From Candidatus Niyogiibacteriota bacterium (lineage in GTDB: Bacteria > Patescibacteriota > Minisyncoccia > JACROR01): a stretch of DNA of 48,100 bases. Made by a program: the position numbers and the translations under genes. Below, piece after piece: positions 32,329-33,425 of this stretch. The notes below the pieces were generated by a model, which was not told the origin of the DNA, made no database searches, and was given only the letters and a program-made list of their open reading frames with translations. The stretch is taken from the NCBI GenBank assembly GCA_016214345.1, contig JACROR010000011.1, positions 1 through 48,100 on the forward strand. The letters run 5' to 3'. Numbering within the stretch: position 1 is the stretch's first letter; the number at the start of each line of letters is the position of its first letter.

Positions 32329-32772
32329 ATGCCTACGCTGATACAAAACAAACGGGCGCATTTTGATTACGAGATCCTGGAAAAATTGGAAGCCGGTTTG
32401 GAATTGCGCGGCTTTGAAACCAAAGCGTTGAAAAACGGCATGGGAAGTCTGGTGGGTAGCCGCGTGCTTATCCGCGGCGGAGAGGCCTTTGTGGTCAATA
32501 TGGAAATAGCGCCCTACCAGCCGGCCAACGCGCCCAAAGATTACGACTCACGCGCTCCGCGGCGGCTGCTTTTACACAAAAAAGAAATAAGCTATCTGGA
32601 AGGCAAATCTCATGAGAAAGGCTTGACTTTGGTGCCAATTTCGTTGTATACTAAGGGCAATTTGATCAAGCTGGAATTCGGCGTGGGTCGCGGCAAGAAA
32701 AAATCCGACAAACGGGAAGCAATCCAAGAGCGTGAAACCAAACGCAAAATAGAGCGCACATTGAAATTGTAG
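32329..32772 (+). CDS. smpB: SsrA-binding protein SmpB
   Basis: SmpB binds tmRNA and positions it in stalled ribosomes for trans-translation. The 147-residue protein has the OB-type core (NKRAHFDYEILEKLEAGLELRGFETKALKNGMGSL) and the basic C-terminal tail (KREAIQERETKRKIERTLKL) that enters the decoding centre. TATTAT at 32317-32322 sits 6 bases upstream of the ATG with no Shine-Dalgarno, suggesting a leaderless transcript. The tmRNA gene lies 300 bases downstream, separated only by the GIY-YIG cassette, which starts 7 bases after the smpB stop. Confidence 0.95.
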   Translation: MPTLIQNKRAHFDYEILEKLEAGLELRGFETKALKNGMGSLVGSRVLIRGGEAFVVNMEIAPYQPANAPKDYDSRAPRRLLLHKKEISYLEGKSHEKGLTLVPISLYTKGNLIKLEFGVGRGKKKSDKREAIQERETKRKIERTLKL

Positions 32773-32779
32773 GGTCTGA

Positions 32780-33076
32780 CCCCCACACTAATTAAGGATT
32801 TGAATCATGTTCTATGTTTATATATTACAAAGTTTGAAAGATAAACAATTATACATCGGCTACTCCGAAGATTTGAAACGCAGAATACAAGAACATGATT
32901 CAGGCAAAAATAAATCAACAAAATACCGAAGACCATTTAGACTGGTTTATTACGAGGCGTATCAATCGAAAATGGATGCGCAAAACAGAGAAACCAATTT
33001 AAAGCTTTTTGGTAGGGCGTTGGGAGGATTAAAGCGGAGAATTAAAATCAGCTTAAATCCTTAATTAGTGTGGGGG
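32780..33076. mobile_element. GIY-YIG mini-cassette with perfect 22-bp terminal inverted repeats
   Basis: The 22-base left end (32780-32801, beginning CCCCCACACTAAT) and the right end (33055-33076) are exact complements. They enclose only one short gene. The right end contains that gene's stop codon and overlaps the first four bases of tmRNA. An 11-bp palindrome GGGTC-T-GACCC (32772-32782) abuts the left end. The element sits between smpB and ssrA. The outer 12 bases match those bounding the inner tRNA-Arg at 8.8 kb. Confidence 0.7.
32807..33064 (+). CDS. Small GIY-YIG nuclease-domain protein
   Basis: An 85-residue single-domain protein. YVYILQSLKDKQLYIGYSEDLKRRIQEHDSG carries the degenerate GIY (YVY) and intact YIG elements with the catalytic arginine (DLKRR). 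A later RE pair (AQNRETNLK) may provide the metal-binding glutamate. Family members act on DNA as homing or repair nucleases; the small bacterial group (UPF0213-like) is of unclear role. It is entirely inside the inverted-repeat cassette. There is no Shine-Dalgarno. Confidence 0.88.
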   Translation: MFYVYILQSLKDKQLYIGYSEDLKRRIQEHDSGKNKSTKYRRPFRLVYYEAYQSKMDAQNRETNLKLFGRALGGLKRRIKISLNP

Positions 33077-33413
33077 ATGATCGGCTTCGAAGGAGGTTTG
33101 ATAATTTTGCTTCAGGCAGAGCATGGCAACACAACTCTTTAAACTGATTGCCAAAAATCATTGCAAACAAACAACTTGCATACGCTTAACGCCTAAGGGC
33201 GTTTCGCCGTCCGCTTCGCTGACATCCTATACGCGAAACCGGGCGTAAACTTATAGGGTCTGATTCTGCGATGTCTCTAAACAGAATGACCAACAGAGGC
33301 AAACCTTTCCGGTTTTTGTCTGATTAACACCGTAAAGTTCTACCAATCAGTCTAAGTCTGTAAACCGCGAATTAAACAACCTTCTCACGCGGGTTCGATT
33401 CCCGCCGTCTCCA
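33073..33413 (+). ncRNA. ssrA: tmRNA (SsrA)
   Basis: The 5' end GGGGATG (33073-33079) pairs with CGTCTCC (33406-33412); the T-arm GCGGG-TTCGATT-CCCGC is standard and the discriminator is A. GGATGATCGGCTTCGA is typical of tmRNA 5' ends. The resume frame begins at GCA (33163) and reads ANKQLAYA followed by TAA at 33187-33189, a short tag ending in LAYA rather than LAA or VAA. Pseudoknot-rich sequence follows. No CCA is encoded after the discriminator. The first four bases belong also to the right end of the GIY-YIG cassette. The resume codon is inferred. Confidence 0.93.
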
Positions 33414-33425
33414 CAAGAATAACGA

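Follow-up and report, generated by a model that had tools for sequence, protein, structure and literature searches.

The window analysed here, a stretch of 48,100 nucleotides from a Candidatus Niyogiibacteriota bacterium (assembly GCA_016214345.1, contig JACROR010000011.1), contains an intact smpB gene followed by the tmRNA gene, and lodged between the two is a 297-bp cassette consisting of two perfectly complementary inverted ends, 253 nt apart, around a single small GIY-YIG open reading frame (Table 1). The cassette begins 7 bp downstream of smpB, the stop codon of the nuclease gene lies inside the right end, and the last four bases of that end are also the first four bases of tmRNA, the start of which was placed at the same position by ARAGORN and by Rfam. 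The preliminary description of this layout was thus confirmed in every detail. A motif to the left of the element, GGGTCTGACCCC, looked repeat-like but proved to be rare in the genome and at chance level in the window.

Table 1. Coordinates and supporting evidence for the features at the smpB–tmRNA locus (positions in the window) and for gene-less inverted-repeat elements elsewhere in the same genome (contig:positions).
Feature	Coordinates	Strand	Details
smpB	32329-32772	+	147 aa, intact; PF01668 3e-46, NCBIfam SmpB equivalog
Probable decayed copy of the tmRNA 5' end	32772-32779	+	GGGTCTGA, compared with GGGGATGA at 33073-33080 (6/8 match); last 4 bases, CTGA, are the presumed left target duplication
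Left terminal inverted repeat	32780-32801	+	22 nt, 100% complementary to the right repeat; CCCCCACACTAATTAAGGATTT; contains the ribosome-binding-site-like AAGGA; first 17 bases shared with the element of a Kaiserbacteria genome (locus L049)
GIY-YIG nuclease gene	32807-33064	+	85 aa, single domain; PF01541, E=7.9e-17; stop codon 33062-33064
13-bp perfect inverted repeat	32801-32813 and 32890-32902		Pairs the start codon region with the codons for Glu-His-Asp inside the ORF
Right terminal inverted repeat	33055-33076	+	22 nt; tmRNA bases 1-4 are 33073-33076
Presumed right target duplication	33077-33080	+	ATGA (tmRNA bases 5-8)
tmRNA gene	33073-33414	+	Tag ANKQLAYA (ARAGORN); Rfam RF00023 E=5.5e-46, to 33416; target of the insertion, 5' end inferred to be rebuilt by the element
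AGGGTCTGATTCTG	33255-33268		Inside the tmRNA gene; resembles the sequence left of the element (AGGGTCTGA); unexplained
Gene-less element L025	C6:3298-3430		Inside the 16S rRNA gene
Gene-less element L023	C4:28469-28663		Inside RNase P RNA
Gene-less element L030	C8:18275-18406		At a tRNA 5' end, with a 9-bp duplication

The assignment of the ORF to the GIY-YIG superfamily was supported by the conservation of its catalytic-site residues, as Y5, Y16-x-G18, H30, R61 and E62 are invariant, and R26 nearly so, in 42 homologues. The structural model is a confident single GIY-YIG domain (pLDDT 93) that is closest to UPF0213 (1zg2) and Slx1 and matches the I-TevI fold weakly. An Rfam scan of the window found only tmRNA and two tRNAs, and the element is only 39 bp longer than its ORF, which does not fit a group I or II intron carrying a GIY-YIG ORF. 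The 13-bp inverted repeat at the start codon is largely forced by the conserved protein sequence (ATGTTC and GAACAT) and is possibly only incidental; when a start-codon hairpin common to all elements was tested, the complementarity beyond the coding constraint was slight (0.55 versus 0.50).

The gene is not fixed at this site. The genome to which the window belongs (G000, 691 kb, by its relatives a member of the Patescibacteria) could be compared with only one or two genomes at the levels of genus, family and order, and comparisons were therefore extended to the class. In the only relative of its family that was compared, G001, which represents a sister genus, smpB is followed after 9 bp (TAAAAAAAC) by tmRNA GGGGATGATCGG, i.e. 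the site is empty, and in 30 smpB loci of the class tmRNA usually follows within 0-91 bp or overlaps the smpB stop. A genome of another family, G041, carries an independently diverged element at the same tmRNA edge, with its own 22-bp ends (ACCCCCACACTAACTTATTTCA) and a GIY-YIG ORF interrupted by a stop, while a further genome, G046, has a GIY-YIG gene there without repeats. Hence, the site is used repeatedly.

The window element is single copy in its genome, but three more GIY-YIG genes are present there, and one of them (contig C1, L004/L046) sits in the same layout, with 22-bp ends GCCCCTCACCCAGAAAGCCTTT and the right end overlapping the 5' end of tRNA-Ala. Of note, a gene-less element (L027, at the end of contig C6) and this GIY-YIG element (at the end of contig C1) are inserted in tandem at the same tRNA-Ala 5' end; the two contigs overlap there with one G/A difference, so they probably join. 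The gene of G001 has 14-bp ends, ATCCCTCACCCTTT. A profile built from these three proteins found 79 loci in named genomes, mostly Patescibacteria, of which 49 have inverted repeats closely flanking the ORF, against 52 of 605 control placements, and adding paralogues from 36 genomes gave 149 distinct genes, 82 of them with such repeats. As an out-of-sample check, 40 new genes from the class were taken, and 27 had repeats of at least 12 bp net within 60 bp, against 2 of 280 control placements in the same loci. Typical ends are CCCCCACACC, CCCCTCACC, CCCCGCACC, CCCAGCACC and CCCCGTTA. Family members are found in 90 of 104 genomes of the class, with up to 16 copies, whereas viral contigs gave five distant hits only, so phages are not the main carriers seen. 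It should be noted that some GIY-YIG relatives lack inverted repeats; among these, more distant genes (L091, L106, L108, L113, L119, L123, L101 and L246) lie directly at tRNA genes, several with duplicated tRNA parts (38 bp of the tRNA-Trp 5' half in L091, 19 bp of the tRNA-Glu 3' end in L106 and L108, and 23 bp of tRNA-Asn in L119), and they look like a second, tRNA-specific insertion mode that carries part of the target gene.

Anchored on the C-run of the ends, an exact 4-bp duplication flanks 13 of 41 elements, where mispaired flanks predict 0.58, and 7 of 19 in the fresh set, where 0.11 is predicted, while lengths of 5, 8 and 9 bp are at background. Exact 7-bp duplications were found only in CCCTCAC-ended elements (the CCCTCACC clade) at tRNA 5' ends (L046, L051, L069 and L284). 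Clear examples of 4-bp duplications are TATG at start codons (L103, L115, L125, L229 and L242), AGCG inside 16S (L089), CGCG and CGGG at tRNA-Ile and tRNA-Pro, and TGTG in DnaA boxes (TGTGGATAA), the last in three independent elements (L049, L253 and L256). Only about a third of elements keep an exact duplication, and that of the window element is itself degenerate, as the candidate CTGA/ATGA agrees in 3 of 4 bases; this, like the extended match of 6 of 8, is weak on its own but agrees with the empty site in G001.

Elements are 72-81% identical in DNA from end to end while their flanks are unrelated, as in L073/L094, L218/L239, the window element and L049, and L068/L239, the last pair residing in one genome. 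Nearly identical recent copies at different sites in one genome were not found, the best being 79-81%. The ORFs are under purifying selection even between copies at different sites (pN/pS 0.17-0.37), and end type is strongly clustered on the protein tree, with 34 changes versus 75 for shuffled labels and none of 200 shuffles as low, although the tree has few columns and many open forks.

The inverted ends also occur without a gene. In G000 the end CTGGGTGAGGG occurs about 30 times, and the copies pair at 28-290 bp to form gene-less units of 41, about 135 and about 195 bp as well as the GIY-YIG element; no larger gene-bearing unit was seen, though some copies stand unpaired at contig ends. The gene-less copies in this genome, of which those of 134-197 bp include the three in Table 1, have duplications that vary from 4 to 9 bp. 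In four other genomes, ends of the CCCCCACACC type pair around GIY-YIG genes or around 36-131 bp of gene-less DNA and nothing larger. That GIY-YIG is the only gene between such ends in the five genomes checked is the main argument that it is the mover and not a passenger, but this argument is indirect.

At least 29 of about 110 repeat-bounded elements lie in or at structural RNA genes, which by our estimate make up roughly 1% of genomes of this size. Of these, 14 are at tRNA or tmRNA ends (13 on the 5' side reading towards the RNA and one at a 3' end), 10 are in or next to 16S or 23S, and 5 are in or at RNase P RNA. Sites recur with different ends, namely the RNase P RNA 5' edge at AGGAAAGTCC four times, once inverted (L082, L191, L199 and L195), and one 23S position three times (L118, L271 and L274), and tRNA-Ala and tRNA-Val 5' ends are likewise used recurrently. 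One 23S rRNA gene (L054:928-4130) appears to carry two different GIY-YIG elements with different ends, at about 1338 and 3575, and in two genomes GIY-YIG elements lie near ribosomal protein L10 leader RNAs (L109 and L220). The suggestion in the preliminary description that target choice may be tied to tRNA-like sequences should therefore be refined, as the targets include tRNA, tmRNA and RNase P RNA edges, rRNA interiors, gene start codons and DnaA boxes, with one clade specialized on tRNA 5' ends. A target motif equal to the end sequence was also looked for, and GGG was found just left of the duplication in 4 and CCC just right of it in 3 of 27, against a background of 1.7%, which is suggestive only.

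Taken together, the comparative evidence makes it very likely that the cassette is a mobile element, as the preliminary description had proposed, and it likely, although in the absence of biochemistry only by inference, uses the GIY-YIG protein as its own mobilizing enzyme. We infer that the 85-aa protein, probably as a dimer, recognizes the G-rich end sequence of the element and a similar short G-rich motif in conserved target sites and makes staggered cuts, that the element copy is joined into the break by the protein or by host repair, and that filling of the 4-nt gaps gives the duplication; the gene-less short elements with the same ends would be mobilized in trans. Insertion is inferred to be tolerated because the duplication rebuilds the 5' end of the RNA, because RNase P trims whatever lies upstream of tRNA and tmRNA, and because inside rRNA the paired ends (predicted stem, z = -7.4) form a stem that RNase III can cut out. 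We further infer that the gene is read from the promoter of the RNA gene, which would explain why it nearly always points the same way as the RNA.

An alternative that we consider unlikely is that the inverted-repeat unit is moved by an unrelated transposase acting in trans, with the GIY-YIG gene as a passenger or as a helper that, for instance, biases repair towards the element or cuts sites without it. Terminal inverted repeats, short target duplications and gene-less derivatives are indeed the anatomy of elements moved by classical transposases, and GIY-YIG enzymes are known to hydrolyse DNA, not to carry out strand transfer. However, no larger gene-bearing element shares the ends in the five genomes examined, GIY-YIG is the only gene in dozens of elements with very different ends, and both end type and duplication length follow the GIY-YIG clade. 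Homing-type spread, in which the enzyme cuts one conserved site and the cassette is copied in by homologous recombination from an occupied allele, the inverted ends serving RNA processing by RNase III or RNase P and not DNA recombination, is also doubtful. It would be in keeping with the recurrent use of the same conserved sites in unrelated genomes, with an enzyme clan that includes homing endonucleases and with the predicted pairing of the ends in RNA, but homing does not create target duplications or move elements between unrelated sites, both of which are seen, and gene-less copies with the same ends are scattered. Least likely is a resident gene of the smpB-ssrA locus with a regulatory or terminator-like repeat; the ORF is under purifying selection and a GIY-YIG gene lies between smpB and ssrA in 3 of 30 genomes examined, yet two of these three are flanked by terminal inverted repeats with different ends and one lacks them, and this reading is already refuted by the empty site and the scattered copies.

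Free-standing GIY-YIG homing endonuclease genes, such as those of the T4 Seg proteins, of which SegB acts in the phage tRNA region, similarly comprise a small nuclease gene as the only gene, intergenic, near tRNA genes and inserted at conserved sites; however, they have no terminal inverted repeats, target duplications or gene-less derivatives and do not as a rule move to unrelated sites. Bacterial insertion sequences and MITEs share with the present elements the terminal inverted repeats, short target duplications, multiple copies and short gene-less derivatives with the same ends, but prokaryotic insertion sequences generally use DDE, HUH, serine or tyrosine enzymes, whereas here the only gene encodes an 85-aa GIY-YIG protein and the whole element is about 300 bp. 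The UPF0213/YhbQ and Slx1-type proteins, the closest solved folds, also have a single catalytic domain but are typically resident cellular proteins without flanking inverted repeats. We found no report of GIY-YIG elements with terminal repeats and target duplications in bacteria, in a literature search that did not cover subscription papers and preprints. GIY-YIG ORFs in non-intron insertions within 16S and 23S genes of CPR bacteria, very probably overlapping objects, were noted without explanation by Tsurumaki et al. (2024, PMC11270868), who saw them as sparse and outside homing and whose text has no mention of inverted repeats or tRNA.

As prokaryotic transposons do not appear to include a class that uses this enzyme, the kind of element appears to be new, subject to experiment. 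It is somewhat more probable than not that these elements form a new superfamily of autonomous transposons whose only enzyme is a single-domain GIY-YIG nuclease of about 85 aa; at about 300 bp they would be among the smallest self-mobilizing DNA elements known, with their own MITEs, target-duplication lengths set by protein clade, and specialization for conserved RNA genes, DnaA boxes and start codons. If the GIY-YIG protein moves these elements, a nuclease clan known for restriction, repair and homing also works as a transposition enzyme, and it would offer a compact nuclease whose target choice (tRNA 5' end, RNase P RNA, start codon or DnaA box) varies by clade. It would also explain the hitherto unexplained GIY-YIG ORFs in rRNA genes of the Candidate Phyla Radiation and the high number of GIY-YIG genes, up to 16 in one genome, in these reduced genomes.
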